A DNA stretch of 35,979 nt from NCBI GenBank assembly GCA_016937255.1, contig JAFGWG010000048.1, positions 1 through 35,979 of the forward strand, in the 5' to 3' direction. Positions 18,703 to 33,446 of the stretch are shown here, piece by piece (within the stretch, counting starts at the first letter, position 1; every line of letters begins with the position of its first letter). This DNA comes from Bacteroidales bacterium. GTDB lineage: Bacteria; Bacteroidota; Bacteroidia; Bacteroidales; DTU049. Made by a program: the position numbers and the translations under genes. The notes below the pieces were generated by a model, which ran no database searches, was not told the DNA's origin, and worked only from the letters and a program-made list of their open reading frames with translations.

Positions 18703-20508
18703 TTAATGATTATTTATCCATTTCATCAAAGATTCAGATTTCCTCTCCCCAATAACCCCGGCAAGATCGTCTTTCGAAGCCTTTTTAACCTTCTCAAAGC
18801 TTCCAAACTCTTTCAGCAGTTTTCCTGAAAGAGTTCTTCCTATTCCCGGAGCATTTTCAAGTTCTGATTTACTGATTTTCTTGTCTCTTTTAGATCGATG
18901 ATGGGTAATTCCAAAACGATGAGCTTCATCACGCATTCGTTGTATCAGTTTCAGGCTTTCGCTGCGTTTGTCAATATACAATGGCAGGCTATCGCCCGGG
19001 AAATAGATTTCTTCCAGCTTTTTGGCAATGCCGATCACTGCAATTTTACCGTAAAGATTCAGTTCTTTAAGCGCTTCAACCGCACTTGATAATTGCCCTT
19101 TGCCTCCATCTACAATTACCAGCTGTGGCAATTCCTGTTTTTCTTCCACGAGCCTTTTGTACCGGCGTGTCAACACTTCCTTCATACTCGCAAAATCGTC
19201 GGAGCCAACAACAGTTTTAATATTGAAATGTCTGTAATCGCGTTTGGCAGGTCTTGCATCTCTAAAAACAACACAAGCGGCAACGGCATCGGTTCCCTGA
19301 AAGTTTGAATTATCGAAGCACTCAATATGAGTGGGTAGGCTCTTAAGTCGCAGTTCTTTTTGCATCGTTTCCATGATGCGTTTGCTATGGCGTTCTGGAT
19401 CTATAAGGTCGCGACGCTTTTTCTGATCCATTTGCTCTTGTTTGGCGTTGCGGAAACTTAAGTCGAGAATCTGTTTTTTATCGCCCCGAAGAGGAACAAT
19501 GAATTTTACTTCTTCCAGTTTTGCATCGATTTTAAAAGGAATTAATACTTCTGAGGCAAACTTTTTATTGATATTCAGAAATTCTCCAAAAGCAAGCAGT
19601 AGCATTTCTTCGTCAGTTTCATCTATTTTTTTCTTCAGTTCAAGTGTATGTCCTTGTATAACAGATCCTTCGTTGATTCTTAGAAAATTTACAAAGGCAT
19701 ATTGCTCGTCTGAAACAATACTGAAAACATCCATATTGCCAATACGTGCATTACTTACCATCGATTTCGATTGGTATTTTTCCAGTGAATCGAGCTTGTC
19801 TTTAATTTTTTGTGCTTTTTCGAATTCCAGATCTTTGCTGTACTCCAGCATTTCTGATTTTAAGCCCTGCATCGATTTTCTGATATTTCCTTTCAAAAGA
19901 AAGCGTGATCCTTCAATCATTTCCATGTATTTCTTGCGACTTTGCTTTCCTTCACAAGGCGCCAGACATTTTCCTATCTGGTATTGTAAGCATGACTTAA
20001 ATTTGCCTGCGGCAATGCTCTTTTCAGTGAGGTTTAATTTGCAGGTTCTTAGTGGATAAATGTTTCGAATAAGTTCGAGCAATGCGCGCATCATTCTAAC
20101 GGAAGGATATGGTCCAAAGTACTCTGCATTTTTGATATTTGCACTTCTTGTGCTAAATATTGTGGGGAAATCTTCACTTGTGATACAAATCCACGGATAG
20201 GTTTTATCATCTTTAAGTAAAACATTATAACGTGGCTTATATTCTTTAATCAAGTTATTCTCTAGAAGCAAAGCATCAAATTCGCTGTTGACGTGAATCA
20301 CATTGATGTTGTTAATTTTACGAACCAGCAATTTAAGTTTTGCACTACTGTGTTCTTTGTGAAAATAAGATGAAACACGTTTTTTTAAGTTTCTAGCCTT
20401 TCCAATATAGATAATTTCTTTGTCTGCGTCGAGGAATTTGTATACGCCAGGCCCCGCCGGTAGACTCTTTAATATTAGTTTGATATGTAAGTTTGGGCTT
20501 TCTGGCAT
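18703..20508 (-). CDS. uvrC: UvrABC excinuclease subunit C
   Basis: UvrC makes both incisions around a UvrB-marked DNA lesion in nucleotide excision repair. The 601-residue protein has the N-terminal GIY-YIG nuclease (GVY 21-23, YIG 34-36, then KARNLKKRVSSYF). A central cysteine cluster (SCLQYQIGKCLAPCEG) and the UVR UvrB-binding motif (LEFEKAQKIKDKLDSLEKYQ) follow. The C-terminal RNase H-like nuclease includes ECFDNSNFQGTDAVAACVVF, and the protein ends in helix-hairpin-helix motifs (LENAPGIGRTLSGKLLKEFGS). I start at the ATG at 20506-20508; a longer frame adds 18 non-conserved residues. A TATATTTG box lies 8 nt before the ATG. Confidence 0.97.
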   Translation of the reverse strand: MPESPNLHIKLILKSLPAGPGVYKFLDADKEIIYIGKARNLKKRVSSYFHKEHSSAKLKLLVRKINNINVIHVNSEFDALLLENNLIKEYKPRYNVLLKDDKTYPWICITSEDFPTIFSTRSANIKNAEYFGPYPSVRMMRALLELIRNIYPLRTCKLNLTEKSIAAGKFKSCLQYQIGKCLAPCEGKQSRKKYMEMIEGSRFLLKGNIRKSMQGLKSEMLEYSKDLEFEKAQKIKDKLDSLEKYQSKSMVSNARIGNMDVFSIVSDEQYAFVNFLRINEGSVIQGHTLELKKKIDETDEEMLLLAFGEFLNINKKFASEVLIPFKIDAKLEEVKFIVPLRGDKKQILDLSFRNAKQEQMDQKKRRDLIDPERHSKRIMETMQKELRLKSLPTHIECFDNSNFQGTDAVAACVVFRDARPAKRDYRHFNIKTVVGSDDFASMKEVLTRRYKRLVEEKQELPQLVIVDGGKGQLSSAVEALKELNLYGKIAVIGIAKKLEEIYFPGDSLPLYIDKRSESLKLIQRMRDEAHRFGITHHRSKRDKKISKSELENAPGIGRTLSGKLLKEFGSFEKVKKASKDDLAGVIGERKSESLMKWINNH

Positions 20509-26697: not shown

Positions 26698-26743
26698 AAA
26701 AACACTGTCATCCTGATCTTGTCGAAGGGCGGCAGTGTTTTTT
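26698..26743 (+). terminator. Terminator of tdh carrying a dispersed-repeat core
   Basis: AAAAACACTG pairs with CAGTGTTTTTT (7 GC-containing base pairs plus A/T flanks) and ends in six Ts, a good intrinsic terminator 18 nt after tdh. The loop holds TCATCCTGATCTTGTCGAAG, close to the 'cctgagcttgtcgaagg' phrase that is scattered in many bacterial genomes. Confidence 0.8.
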
Positions 26744-28761: not shown

Positions 28762-29271
28762 ATGACTGAAAACAAAGGAATCATAACATTTGGTGGAAAT
28801 CCACTAACAATTTTAGGTGATATGGTAAAAGTGGGCGATAAAGCTCAGGATTTTACCGTAATGAGTAATGAACTGAAGCCCGTAAAGCTCAGCGATTATG
28901 CCGGAAAAGTACGTGTACTTTCTGTAATGCCATCGATCGACACCCCGGTTTGTGCTGCTCAGACCCGTAAATTTAACGAAGAAGCGGCCAAGCTTGATAA
29001 TGTTCAGATTATGACATTATCTGTTGATTTACCATTTGCACTGGCTCGTTTTTGCGGTGCCGAAGGCATTGACAAAGCTGCAACCCTGAGTGATTATAAC
29101 GGACACGATTTTGCCAAAAAATACGGATTCCTTATTGGAGAGCTCAACCTTTTGGCTCGCGGTGTTATTATCGTTGATCAAAACGACGACATTCGCTATG
29201 TGGAATATGTACCCGAAGTTGGAAATGAGCCTGATTATGATAAAGCATTAGAGGCGTTGAAAAGTCTTTAG
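28762..29271 (+). CDS. tpx: Thiol peroxidase Tpx
   Basis: Tpx is an atypical two-Cys peroxiredoxin that reduces hydrogen and alkyl peroxides using thioredoxin. The 169-residue protein has the peroxidatic cysteine C64 in PSIDTPVCAAQTRKF, the resolving cysteine C98 in ARFCGAEGI, and the active-site arginine in LLARGVIIVD. Length is normal. The gene diverges from ubiD with 78 nt between starts. It is followed by about 700 nt without a gene, beginning with an array of hairpins. Confidence 0.96.
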   Translation: MTENKGIITFGGNPLTILGDMVKVGDKAQDFTVMSNELKPVKLSDYAGKVRVLSVMPSIDTPVCAAQTRKFNEEAAKLDNVQIMTLSVDLPFALARFCGAEGIDKAATLSDYNGHDFAKKYGFLIGELNLLARGVIIVDQNDDIRYVEYVPEVGNEPDYDKALEALKSL

Positions 29272-29308
29272 GGACAGGTTTAGCTTTTTCTTATAAGTGA
29301 AAAGTCTG

Positions 29309-29378
29309 AAATCAGCTGCTTAATCATGCTGTCGTCCGCCGCAAAGCAAGGTCACGGCATCGTTTAAGGAGCTGATTT
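29309..29378. repeat. Hairpin 1 of the post-tpx array
   Basis: AAATCAGCT (29309-29317) pairs with AGCTGATTT (29370-29378), and pairing continues inward through CTTAA/TTAAG and ATGC/GCAT with small bulges. The apical part is GC-rich (gtcgtccgccgcaaag). Confidence 0.7.
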
Positions 29379-29453
29379 CTTACGTCAATGACTCCGAATA
29401 AGATTTGTAGTAAAAAAACTAAAGAAGCTGGCTCATGCAAAGCGATTGCTTTT

Positions 29454-29517
29454 TTATCGGATATCTCTTCGTTCCGCTTCGGTTTTGCAATCGGCGGGAC
29501 AAGAGATCATCCGATAA
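29454..29517. repeat. Hairpin 2 of the post-tpx array
   Basis: TTATCGGAT and ATCTCTT on the left pair with AAGAGAT and ATCCGATAA on the right. Pairing continues to CCGC/GCGG near the apex with one-base bulges, about 21 pairs in all. The apex contains CGTTCCGCTTCGG. A T-run follows at 29523-29528, so it might also terminate transcription. Confidence 0.75.
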
Positions 29518-29554
29518 GATCTGTTTTTCTGGATATAAGATAAAAATAGGCAAA

Positions 29555-29594
29555 ACCCTGCCATCGTTCCGACGCAGGAGGATCATGGCAGGGT
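29555..29594. repeat. Hairpin 3 of the post-tpx array
   Basis: ACCCTGCCAT (29555-29564) is perfectly complementary to ATGGCAGGGT (29585-29594). The 20-nt loop is cgttccgacgcaggaggatc and shares the CGTTCCG phrase with hairpin 2. Confidence 0.8.
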
Positions 29595-29614
29595 GTGCGG
29601 CGGCATATGGGGAC

Positions 29615-29652
29615 CTGTTCCATGACCCTCATTCTTCGGGATGATGGAACAG
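29615..29652. repeat. Hairpin 4 of the post-tpx array
   Basis: CTGTTCCAT (29615-29623) is perfectly complementary to ATGGAACAG (29644-29652). Inside, CCC and GGG can extend the pairing. The loop is gaccctcattcttcgggatg. Confidence 0.75.
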
Positions 29653-29690
29653 AGATTCGTCTCTTTTGGGTGGTTTTTCGTGTATAACTC

Positions 29691-29721
29691 TTTGATTTTT
29701 ATTCTGTTTTTCGTAATTTTG
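29691..29721 (+). promoter_or_regulatory. Consensus promoter with no gene downstream
   Basis: TTTG at 29691-29694 is followed after 19 nt by TAATTTTG at 29714-29721. Both elements and the spacing fit the Bacteroidota housekeeping promoter exactly. No plus-strand gene follows; the next 260 nt are hairpins and repeats, then the 3' end of a minus-strand gene. It could drive a small RNA or be a relic. Confidence 0.6.
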
Positions 29722-29984
29722 TACTTCCAAAATTGATTAGGTTTTCGTCGACGAAACCACAACAACTTTTATACTTTTTAACCAAGCATCAGACTTCCGA
29801 AGTCTTTAGTGCGTGTCTTTAGAATGACTTTGCTTAAGACTTCTGACGTCTTTCGTTAGCCCAACTTCTTACTTTTCTCCTTTTCTCCTTTTTCAATTTG
29901 ACTTATCACAATCAAATGCCATCAGTGAGATCAGCGGGATCTGCGGGAGAAACCAGAGCGAGTGTGGGAGCGAGAGTGAAGAAT

Positions 29985-32900
29985 CTAGAAAAACGCCCTC
30001 AACTGGATATTCCCCGTATGAATAACCGGATTTCCCTCGCTGGAACGGGCATCGTAGATGAGATTCAACTGAAGATTTTTGCCGATATATCGTTGGGCAG
30101 TGATATTCCATGTGAAGTTTCTTCCGTCTTTCAGCCCTTCCAGCATAATATACTCAATGCTATTGCTGTTTTCGCCGGAATAATTAATGAAAAGCACATT
30201 GAAATTGGCCTGCACAATACCTTTGCTCGCAGCACTAAATTTTAGTTCAATTCCTCCTTTTCTGATGATGGCTTGCTCGAGCGAATTAATGGTATTTTTT
30301 CTTTCGGTATAGTCGCTAAGTATGCTGAATCTGAATTTTGTGCCGTTTTGCCACGAAATACCGGGATTAATGGCTTTTTCATCAATATTATAATTGTTTG
30401 AGGGGAAATATTCTGAAGAAAAACTTCGAAATCCATTCATGACAGGCAATTGAAAGGAAATACTCTTGCTGATATTCCAAATGATTTTCAGCTCGTCTTT
30501 TGTCTGATTTCGATTTTCAAACCCATTTACCAATAACCCACGGCTACTGTTCTCATTATGCGTCCAATTGATACCTAGTTTGGTGCTCCCGCGGTTAAAA
30601 GACAAAACGTTGCGCCAGCTTCTTGTCTCTGAAATGATATTTGTATCTCCTACTAAATTATTGAAGGGGATATACATGTCTTCAATACTATTGCCGGAAC
30701 TTTTTTTAATGAAGTTGAAAAAACTCTTGTTGTGAAATCGAGCAATGAAGGAAGGAACTTTCTTTTTCTTATTACAAACCGAGGCAGGATCAAGAATGAA
30801 ATTTCCCGATAACTGACTGGTAAACACTCTTATATAGTCGTTGGTAGGGATATAGATTCTAATAAAATTGGCTTCATCGCGAAAAGCTGCAGGTTCAAAT
30901 TCGTTCAGTTCCTGCACATTATTCTCATTATAATCGATCCAAGTGTATACGCCTTGTCCTGGTTGAACCTCGAGATAAGAATATTCTTTTTTGGCTTCCA
31001 TTCCGGAGCCGGTTTCATAAAATGCCCCAATAACCAAAAAGCGTTTTTTGAATCTGCCATTATATTCAATACGACCCAACAAGTATTCCTCGTTTTCATG
31101 CTGTGTATTCTGCTGATATGTAATTTGGCGGAAGGATGTTCGTAATAATAAATTTTGCGATTCCATGAATCTTCCAGATATTTCCATCCCTGCATCGTGC
31201 GATACGCTGAATGGGGAAAAAGAAACACTGTCAGCACTAAGATCTTCCCGGTATTGATAATAAAGGCGAGCTTGTGTGCTTTTTGAGGTATCTGAAAATC
31301 CAAGCCAGCTTTTTCCTTGCCACCATTGTCGGGAACTGGTATTTAATGAATCGGCTGCTTGGTTCATTATTCGATTGTATTCTCCTTGCTCTTCTATTCC
31401 GAATTCAAGAATGCCAAAATCGTAAACCAGTCCGGATAGATGTTGTAGAAATTCGCTTTCTATCTGAGTTCCTGGAGCAGAAAGATAAGCACCATTCCCA
31501 TAAAATAGCAGTTTGTTTATTTTTTTATTGAACTGAAGACTGTTTCGCATGGCAGCATTATTTTCGCCGTGTTTGAAAGCACCACTTTGCAAATGAATTT
31601 TTTCGCCTTTGGTATTTCTCAGGAGTAATGAAATAGAGCCAAAATACTCGTTGGCAGCATCGTTATATAAACCAAGGTTCCAGTCACGATCAAATTCTAC
31701 AGTTCTGAATCGTTGAATTTCTTGAAAATACTGATCGGTATATTCTACTGCGGCTTTGCTTTCCAGCATCCATGGATTGACAGTATCTTTATTTAGCTTA
31801 TTGGTTTTGTTGAATTGGAGTCTAAAAGCTTGCCCTTGGTTATCTTCATCATCGATTTCACTGAAGAGATTAGGGTCATTATTGCTAATAGCATATTCCG
31901 CATTAAGAGATGTAGTTGGATTAAAATCGTATTGCATGCGCATAGAGTACATCTCAGTGCCTTTTGGGGTGATGAGGATACTTACAGGCTCATACGCACC
32001 TTGTGGTATACCAGCTACTGGGACCAGCCATTTATACACTCTGCCATTGGCGTTTGAACTACTTTGTATGTAGTTTCCATTTCCTTCGCCTACATAGCTG
32101 AAGCTCAGGCGATATAGTGCGGAGTCTGGACTGGTGGAATAGACGAAAACACTATCGTATCCTAAGCTGTCAATCATGGCATATAAAACATATTCATTGG
32201 TAAAGCCTATGCTGTCGATTCCCGGGAATAATGCATCTTGTAGGCTATCTCCAATTTGAGATAAGAGTAATTTTTCTGCATCACTCAAATCTTGTTGTAT
32301 GCTTTGATTTTTAAGGTCTTTTTCTGAAAAAACACTAAATCCGGCACTGAATTTCCCACTTTGATATTCCAGATTTGATGCAATTACTGCACGTGCGAAA
32401 TTTTTATCGGAATATTCGAATTCAACTACAATTCTTGAATTTACAGTAATTGGAATCTTTGATGTAAAGGTGATTTCTGCCGTATTATAATCAATGATAT
32501 AATCGTTTTCCTGTCCTCGTTCCAGTTCGCGCCCATCGAGGTGAACTTTTTCACTTCCAGCCAGAACAATGATGAATGTTTCATTGTTATTTCCTGTTAG
32601 TTTGTAAGGGCCTTGGTTCCCTTCCATCGCATTAAGCATTTGCCTCATATATTTCCCTTTGCCAAAAGCGCCGCTAACGGTAAATTTCATCATGTCATTA
32701 TCGGTAAGACCCGGTGAAAAGCTAGTGTTAAAATCACCCCCTTGTGATTTGCGATTATATTTCATGAAATAGGATGTTTGGGGTGAAAATAGGCTTATGT
32801 CGCCTGCTGTTAATGCCGTTTCATCTTTTTGAAGGCGGATAAATACCTTGTCGAATTCTTGAATTTGCTGGGTATTTCCATCGGGTTGAATGGGAATATT

Positions 32901-33446
32901 ATCATCGGAAATGACCGCCTGAATTTCAAGATCATTATTAAGTTTTCCTGATAATTGCAGGTTTAAGGAGGAATTTAGTGATGCGTCTTGTTTGTTACCA
33001 ATGCTGAAACCGCGGGTAATACTTCCCGATTTGTCGAGTCCTTCGGTTTGCAGCCAATCATCGGAACCGGCAGCATTATTTAATTCAAATGGATTATAAT
33101 ATTTATTGAGTTCCGGAAATTGTAGGCTTGAGTCTTTGTGAAATGCAGCTTCGCTAATATTTATTGACATGGCTTTATAGCGAATGATAAGGGAATCTGT
33201 TTTCAGCGCTTCTTTATTAAGAAAAATAATTTGGTGGGTATTGATGTCGAACCGAAATGCTTCGGAAGTGATAATAGATCCGCTTCCAGTTGTGATTTTG
33301 ATGCTGCTCGGCACAACCGTATTGATATCGAGAATTAGACTATCGGGGTAGGGGAAATACAGTGTTTTTCTTTGTTCAGGCACATCATTTTGTGCAGAAA
33401 CAAAAAATGGAATTAGGAGCAAAAGAATGTGTAGCAGCCTTTTCAT
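29985..33446 (-). CDS. Large outer-membrane beta-barrel-like surface protein
   Basis: The 1153-residue product has a clear signal peptide (MKRLLHILLLLIPFFVSAQ) and ends in a terminal phenylalanine (LRAFF), as outer-membrane barrels often do. The N-terminal 110 residues look like a strand-rich domain. A segment at about 290-345 (ETFIIVLAGSEKVHLDGREL...NDYIIDYNTAEITFTSKIPI) resembles motifs in SprA-type proteins, where a designated-value/bound phrase precedes barrel strands. From about 345 on there are many alternating aromatic strands. It may be a barrel related to the T9SS translocon SprA but is much shorter (SprA exceeds 2000 residues). No operon partner is evident. Function unknown. Confidence 0.7.
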   Translation of the reverse strand: MKRLLHILLLLIPFFVSAQNDVPEQRKTLYFPYPDSLILDINTVVPSSIKITTGSGSIITSEAFRFDINTHQIIFLNKEALKTDSLIIRYKAMSINISEAAFHKDSSLQFPELNKYYNPFELNNAAGSDDWLQTEGLDKSGSITRGFSIGNKQDASLNSSLNLQLSGKLNNDLEIQAVISDDNIPIQPDGNTQQIQEFDKVFIRLQKDETALTAGDISLFSPQTSYFMKYNRKSQGGDFNTSFSPGLTDNDMMKFTVSGAFGKGKYMRQMLNAMEGNQGPYKLTGNNNETFIIVLAGSEKVHLDGRELERGQENDYIIDYNTAEITFTSKIPITVNSRIVVEFEYSDKNFARAVIASNLEYQSGKFSAGFSVFSEKDLKNQSIQQDLSDAEKLLLSQIGDSLQDALFPGIDSIGFTNEYVLYAMIDSLGYDSVFVYSTSPDSALYRLSFSYVGEGNGNYIQSSSNANGRVYKWLVPVAGIPQGAYEPVSILITPKGTEMYSMRMQYDFNPTTSLNAEYAISNNDPNLFSEIDDEDNQGQAFRLQFNKTNKLNKDTVNPWMLESKAAVEYTDQYFQEIQRFRTVEFDRDWNLGLYNDAANEYFGSISLLLRNTKGEKIHLQSGAFKHGENNAAMRNSLQFNKKINKLLFYGNGAYLSAPGTQIESEFLQHLSGLVYDFGILEFGIEEQGEYNRIMNQAADSLNTSSRQWWQGKSWLGFSDTSKSTQARLYYQYREDLSADSVSFSPFSVSHDAGMEISGRFMESQNLLLRTSFRQITYQQNTQHENEEYLLGRIEYNGRFKKRFLVIGAFYETGSGMEAKKEYSYLEVQPGQGVYTWIDYNENNVQELNEFEPAAFRDEANFIRIYIPTNDYIRVFTSQLSGNFILDPASVCNKKKKVPSFIARFHNKSFFNFIKKSSGNSIEDMYIPFNNLVGDTNIISETRSWRNVLSFNRGSTKLGINWTHNENSSRGLLVNGFENRNQTKDELKIIWNISKSISFQLPVMNGFRSFSSEYFPSNNYNIDEKAINPGISWQNGTKFRFSILSDYTERKNTINSLEQAIIRKGGIELKFSAASKGIVQANFNVLFINYSGENSNSIEYIMLEGLKDGRNFTWNITAQRYIGKNLQLNLIYDARSSEGNPVIHTGNIQLRAFF

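Follow-up and report, generated by a model that had tools for sequence, protein, structure and literature searches.

Four hairpins downstream of a tpx-like gene of a Bacteroidales bacterium belong to dispersed families of palindromic repeats with a bulged core

Hairpins Between the tpx-Like Gene and the 1153-aa ORF

The DNA analysed (35,979 nt; the window) is one contig, number 159 of 254, in the draft assembly (3.85 Mb) of a Bacteroidales bacterium. Hairpins 1–4 (29309–29652) were located between the ends of two convergent genes, a tpx-like gene and a 1153-aa ORF (Table 1). An earlier note on this DNA had described four consecutive stem-loops behind tpx, with unrelated arms and related apices. 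All four were present, and so were the apex phrases named: hairpins 2 and 3 contain CGTTCCG, and hairpin 1 contains GTCCG. Two features had been overlooked: hairpin 4 was an inverted copy of hairpin 3, with the same core on the other strand, and was detected via this core alone; and what all four hairpins had in common was the kind of bulged core, beyond the shared phrase.

Above its 8-bp stem, hairpin 3 showed a T-A pair, a CGT/TC loop, a 3-bp YCC/GGR stem and an apical loop. Hairpin 2 carried one bulged C per arm (29470 and 29508), on either side of a 7-bp stem. Hairpin 1 carried TCA-N5-TCGT in both arms, which placed a 7-bp stem between two mirror-placed CGT/TC loops.

Folding energies compared with dinucleotide shuffles gave z-scores of -5.9, -3.8, -2.8, and -1.1 for hairpins 1, 2, 3, and 4, respectively; the energy of hairpin 4 alone was unexceptional, with 24 of 200 shuffles folding equally well. 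At E ≤ 0.001, a comparison of the 344 bases of the hairpin region with the genome gave 31 matches, counting the window, and these sorted into families designated C (hairpin 1), B (hairpin 2), and A (hairpins 3 and 4). Because it was repeated elsewhere in the genome, the hairpin set was considered to lie beyond chance.

A further shared stretch, (TCGTAATTT..)CAAATTTGATTAGTTTTTCGTCG, was observed at about 29705–29752 and also at loci L042, L065, L116, L122, L183, and L185, with six convincing copies among seven regular-expression matches. It was located downstream of A hairpins in three copies (the window and contigs C72 and C108), and it may contain a Bacteroidota promoter -7 box.

Table 1. Positions of the genes and hairpin features in the window
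Feature	Position	Strand	Description
Terminator behind the tdh gene	26698–26742		Apex CCTGATCTTGTCGAAGG
tpx-like gene	28762–29271	+	Redoxin, AhpC-TSA (Pfam PF08534 + PF00578); upstream of the hairpins
Hairpin 1, family C	29308–29379	+	Outer stem, loop TC/CGT, 7-bp stem, loop CGT/TC, inner stem
Hairpin 1 modules TCA-N5-TCGT	29324–29335 and 29352–29363	+	Family C
Hairpin 2, family B	about 29454–29517	+	Outer stem, 7-bp stem, inner 7-bp stem
Hairpin 3, family A, T/A type	29556–29593	+	8-bp stem 29556–29563/29586–29593
Spacer between hairpins 3 and 4	29594–29614		21 nt, between inverted family A hairpins
Hairpin 4, family A, C/G type	29615–29652	-	Inverted relative to hairpin 3
1153-aa ORF	29985–33446	-	Downstream of the hairpins

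Core and Covarying Arms of Family A

The pattern CGTYCCGA-N(1-20)-AGGRTCATG had 29 exact matches in the genome, while the same pattern read backwards had none. With the core as the only criterion and at most one substitution per half, the genome DNA retrieved yielded 45 cores; one core at window position 19481, which was unlike the rest, was dropped, leaving 44 copies. The arms played no part in selecting these copies, and the conservation of the core is partly due to the way they were selected. The tail TCA, which lies within the selected core, was present in 44/44 copies. The inner Y/R pair was C-G in 22, T-A in 20, and C-A in 2 copies. The shared core can be described roughly as T(C)GT opposite TCA, a small irregularity in the stem; the CGT/TC loop of family A can be read as a G-C pair with an extra C ahead of it and a T-T mismatch behind it.

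The own arms of each copy formed 7.07 Watson-Crick pairs at nine positions, compared with 4.9 when arms were exchanged between copies, and none of 5000 permutations, which leave the kinship among the 44 copies in place, reached the observed mean. The earlier note had asked whether each copy of the apex elsewhere has its own complementary flanks; in this genome, related apices did occur at other places and copies with non-complementary flanks were not the outcome. Among 35 distinct arm pairs, all eight positions were paired in 19, seven in 10, six in 5, and five in 1, so that 34 of the 35 had at least six of eight positions paired (G-T allowed). The outermost of the eight pairs was C-G in 17, G-C in 16, A-T in 4, T-A in 3, and T-G in 1 of the 44 copies, and was unpaired in 3.

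In the true register, 93.9% of the cells were paired, compared with 77.5% in shuffles, and the covariation score was 0.499, compared with 0.198. When the partners were slid by one to three columns, only 37–55% of the cells paired, the covariation score fell to 0.067–0.124, and the number of cells changed on both sides fell from 96 to 5–23. Three of five covariation measures were clear of the shuffles (0/500). The other two were not clear: the number of pairs with two-sided change was 7 against a shuffle mean of 5.6, reached by 68/500 shuffles, and the number of further pair types was 21 against 18.0, reached by 31/500 shuffles. The covariation supports the suggestion of the earlier note that stems which diverge while keeping their pairing are selected for structure, and for family A there is good support for selection on a bulged core within stems that drift.

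The same note had also considered a mobile apex inserted into pre-existing inverted repeats. The apex was indeed far more conserved than the arms, partly by construction since the copies were selected via the apex; nevertheless, this explanation is very improbable, because pairing stopped after the eighth pair and was at background level from the ninth position in the 44 copies, the fifth pair was T-A in 40/44 copies, and the 5' arm was pyrimidine-rich (mean 4.66 of 6). Subfamilies of A with common arms and spacers, and the fixed geometry of the doublets described below, also stand against it.

Copies, Doublets and Genomic Placement of Family A

A covariance model (R1) was built from the 44 copies of family A. 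It matched hairpin 3 at 29550–29599 on the + strand (57.4 bits) and hairpin 4 at 29609–29658 on the - strand (58.3 bits), both being training rows of the model. At E ≤ 0.01, R1 matched 55 places in the genome, training copies included, and these formed 39 clusters, of which 16 were doublets; the remaining 23 were single hairpins, in some cases located at the end of a contig. In all 16 doublets a hairpin on the + strand was followed by one on the - strand. The spacer was 18–23 nt long: 21 nt in seven doublets, 22 nt in six, and 18, 19, and 23 nt in one each. Read by eye, 14 of the 16 doublets combined a T/A-type with a C/G-type hairpin, as hairpins 3 and 4 do; in the other two (on C153 and the first on C29), one hairpin had a C-A mismatch at the pair that defines the type. 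The outer flanks of the doublets varied among loci.

Of the 55 matches, 28 were found no more than 350 bp from a contig end, a zone of about 4.6% of the assembly. It is therefore probable that the repeats caused breaks in the assembly, and the genome may contain more copies than were counted. Comparison of 32 joined flank pairs (one of them from the chance core at window position 19481) with about 0.2 Mb of the 3.85-Mb genome revealed no empty site, and all 41 spanning matches were the loci bearing the insert themselves.

None of the 39 clusters was located inside a gene predicted by a simple codon-based gene caller. Of their 78 sides, 28 faced the 3' end of a gene (seven of them 8–27 nt away), 16 faced a 5' end, and 34 had no gene before the sequence ended. 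That 28 of the 44 gene-facing sides are 3' ends would fit hairpins that are transcribed 3'-UTR structures, such as mRNA stabilisers, hairpins bound by proteins or RNases, or terminators, which are kept for the host and are repeated only secondarily. One B copy on C169 appeared, by eye, to directly follow a stop codon and to precede a GC-rich stem with T after it, and in family A the G-T pairs (32) outnumbered the A-C mismatches (9), which also fits RNA, though one column supplied 21 of the 32. Of the 11 clusters with genes on both sides, however, five lay between convergent, four between co-directional, and two between divergent genes, and the inverted doublets would place one hairpin in the other RNA orientation. 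A terminator scan of 29200–30000 gave a single site, at the level of shuffles: on the - strand, within the left arm of hairpin 3, with a stem of 5 bp; none was formed by hairpins 1–4 as such. Runs of at least four T within 6 nt of the A stem were found in 2/44 copies on one side and 0/44 on the other, and Rfam gave no match at gathering or relaxed thresholds. An RNA role is possible for copies near stop codons; as the common function it is disfavoured by the inversion within the doublets, the clusters between divergent genes and the lack of T-runs, and the explanation as a whole is considered rather unlikely.

Families B and C

A similarity search with hairpin 2 found 11 places at E ≤ 0.1, and 13 B copies were collected by an expression tolerating three substitutions per half. 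The bulged base was C in the 5' arm of 11/13 and in the 3' arm of 13/13 copies, both positions being inside the search expression. Paired cells amounted to 72/78 in the outer, 79/91 in the middle, and 82/91 in the inner stem. Many copies had the outer arms GGAT/ATCC, two had AAAAGAC/GTCTTTT, and a variant form was present in three of the 13 (one each in L006, L008, and L022).

The similarity search with hairpin 1 found three places including the hairpin itself, with E 0.026 for the weakest. A scan for the double module TCA-N5-TCGT, with pairing of N5 at four or more of five positions as the selection rule, gave 13 copies in about 0.2 Mb of genome DNA and none in each of 10 mononucleotide shuffles; as the scanned DNA lies mostly near other repeats, 13 is not a genome count. 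N5 occurred with several different sequences and was fully paired in 11 modules and paired at 4/5 positions in two. The outer stems, which had not been selected for, were unbroken for 4–8 positions from the loop, and for three in one copy cut by a contig end. Closely spaced pairs of C elements on opposite strands were observed in L176, L179, and L185.

Families B and C thus bear their irregularities twice, across a 7-bp stem, and the selection on the bulged core seen in A was repeated in both, on fewer copies.

The C, B, and A hairpins were close together in the window, along with the further shared stretch, and on contigs C249 and C28 B and C again lay next to each other, with one weak copy of each. 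Such clustering could mean that the hairpins derive from another mobile element, MITE-like or of the IS200/IS605 kind, as its non-autonomous ends or remnants, and are not REPs; most Y1 genes of this genome do adjoin hairpins of their own. We regard this origin as quite unlikely, as C, B, and A differed between loci in their order and in the distances between them, the outer flanks of the A doublets vary, and comparison of 29300–29665 with plasmids and phages gave no match.

Distribution Outside the Genome

Family A was found in none of 39 relatives by DNA similarity and in none of 58 by the covariance model, the latter with stricter filters and the best 100 candidates scored per genome. These relatives included no genome of the same genus. 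In a class-wide sample of 395 genomes, the own genome included, one of the 394 others had a match when the best 15 candidates were scored per genome, a scan that recovers 15 of the 55 A matches of the own genome. This match (30.8 bits, E 3.9e-4 for one genome) was without TCGT and was taken as chance.

A stricter core pattern had one match in 84,980 species genomes, among which the own genome is possibly absent; the match was in an Actinomycetota MAG and is estimated to be at about chance level. Viral contigs gave no core match. No description of the family was found in the literature searched, which covered a minority of subscription journals and no bioRxiv preprints. At the level sampled, the hairpin family is private to the lineage and has so far been found only in this one genome.

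Y1 Transposase Loci and Comparison with REP Elements

Six Y1_Tnp matches were found in the genome. No R1 match was present at these loci at E ≤ 10; in an assembly of 254 contigs, the relevant gene may be missed. Among 19 Y1 loci of relatives, one R1 match was obtained (12.7 bits, E 0.53). Core-like strings were picked up in several Y1 loci by a regular expression; by eye none was family A, and none gave a good model match.

Most of the own Y1 genes were flanked by hairpins with other apices (L029, L032, L033, and L034). L029 contained three hairpins with the common apex GGAATTCATTCC and three different paired outer stems, and exact matches to this apex occurred at only three places in the genome, all in L029. 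The Y1 genes of L148 and L149, from relatives of the same taxonomic family, were flanked by TTGTCCC..GGGACAA and TCGTCCC..GGGACGA palindromes, which recall the inner stem of family B; this may be chance.

The REP families in the literature compared, which included PMC3733652, PMC6006769, PMC3686654, PMC8266576, and PMC2267715, are characterised mainly by their sequence and tag. Y1 (HUH) transposases cut REP repeats, which they bind as folded single strands; for the E. coli repeats, the bulge is described as required, with its unpaired state outweighing its sequence, while the upper stem and loop tolerate change and some lower-stem bases are contacted (PMC8266576). The present elements resemble the E. 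coli REP/BIME elements and the Pseudomonas REPINs, which are associated with TnpA-REP/RAYT, in being short extragenic palindromes (55 matches; 0/39 clusters in genes) with a stem bulge, in forming lineage-specific families, and in the inverted doublets of two types (16/16 doublets as inverted close pairs, the other 23 of 39 clusters being single hairpins). They differ from them in that the arms covary around a fixed bulged core and that the 5' GT[AG]G tag is absent: neither GTAG nor GTGG was found directly 5' of the 8-bp stem in any of the 44 A copies, and each of the four bases before the stem carried at most 0.31 bits. A further difference is that they flank no Y1 transposase gene in the genome as assembled, and a RAYT gene flanked by the element was found at none of the six Y1_Tnp loci. 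The elements are REP-like in layout and probably in recognition, whereas membership in the GT[AG]G-tagged REPs fails on these features.

Two further groups share features with the present elements. According to PMC6006769, the genes of transposase subclass 2.6 of Bacteroidetes are flanked by 'atypical secondary structures' without a GT[AG]G tag. These hairpins are similar in lacking the consensus and in having copies elsewhere in the genome; they differ in flanking a transposase gene, which the present elements do at no Y1 gene observed. The CGTC-tagged repeats, including Neisseria dRS3, are described in PMC3733652 as having no dedicated transposase, a CGTC tag outside an 8–9 bp stem that starts with two A-T pairs, and a CCA tail. 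Similarity to family A lies in the CGT(C/T) and the 3-nt 3' tail by the inner stem, in the dimers, and in having no dedicated transposase. In family A, by contrast, the CGT is enclosed by an outer stem, the inner stem is 3 bp long without initial A-T pairs, and the tail is TCA, so family A does not belong to the CGTC repeats as characterised in that source.

Proposed Recognition of the Bulged Core

The best reading, to which we give a probability of about 60%, is that the four hairpins belong to a lineage-private, REP/BIME-like superfamily of palindromic repeats recognised at a bulged core. The conserved part would be the bulged core (approximately T, an extra C, G, then a T opposite TCA), in stems that are free to vary as long as they remain paired. 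A DNA-processing protein would most likely recognise each hairpin on its own strand in single-stranded DNA. Such a protein would read the bulge and not the arms, and the arms could drift with compensation. Recognition per strand would fit DNA better than RNA, because the transcript of an inverted doublet would hold both orientations. The protein may insert copies of the elements between genes, in many cases as inverted doublets; judged from the repetition and the doublet geometry, mobility is likely. The enzyme might be of the HUH/Y1 type, none having been linked to the element.

Against this reading count the Y1 loci, none of which bore the element, and the fact that neither a GT[AG]G tag nor an empty site was found. 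The single clusters (23/39), the sides at 5' ends (16/44), and the two unclear covariation measures also count against it.

A more far-reaching version is tentative and rather doubtful. It holds that these are mobile hairpins defined by a grammar of bulges and not by sequence, with T(C)GT/TCA used once (A) or twice, mirrored across 7 bp (C, with a variant in B). The doublets would be spread by a non-RAYT enzyme that acts on single strands and reads only the extra base, the arms being free.

A comparable mode of action is that of integron attC sites, folded strands that are read by extrahelical bases; at their foot lies the R box RYYYAAC/GTTRRRY, and their enzyme is encoded by an IntI gene. For the present REP/BIME-like elements, the compensated drift of the arms is visible within one genome, and the part that is probably recognised, the bulge module, can thus be read by comparison. 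The hairpins offer testable substrates for the single-strand transposases of Bacteroidota, and they suggest that repeat searches by sequence only may miss families of this kind.

Dispersed Element in the Terminator Behind the tdh Gene

The earlier note had likened the hairpins to the terminator behind a gene that it called tdh, which Pfam analysis identified as an NAD-dependent epimerase. A pattern of the dispersed CTGAGC-TGTCGAAG element in this terminator had, with at most two mismatches, 23 matches in the genome (the window site and 22 others; L167–L189), compared with none for the reversed control. In the best register, the own arms paired at 9.26 of 11 positions, compared with 7.82 when permuted (maximum 8.74 in 2000 permutations). 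At least nine of the 11 arm positions were paired at 16 of the 23 places, with arms that differed between places; the other seven (L174, L179, L180, L183, L185, L186, and L189) were without such pairing.

The likeness held as a matter of design, since this element and family A both have a fixed apex and paired arms that vary by place. It did not extend to the element itself: the apex is unrelated, and many copies are A-rich before and T-rich after the hairpin, in the manner of a terminator. The CTGAGC-TGTCGAAG element is a separate, unrelated element of similar design. In many copies it resembled a bidirectional terminator in which the apex is fixed. Two A hairpins, in L018 (C149) and L026 (C196), had a longer apical loop containing CCTGAGCCCGTCGAA or CCCTGAGGCTCTCGAA, and these loops resembled the CTGAGC-TGTCGAAG element.
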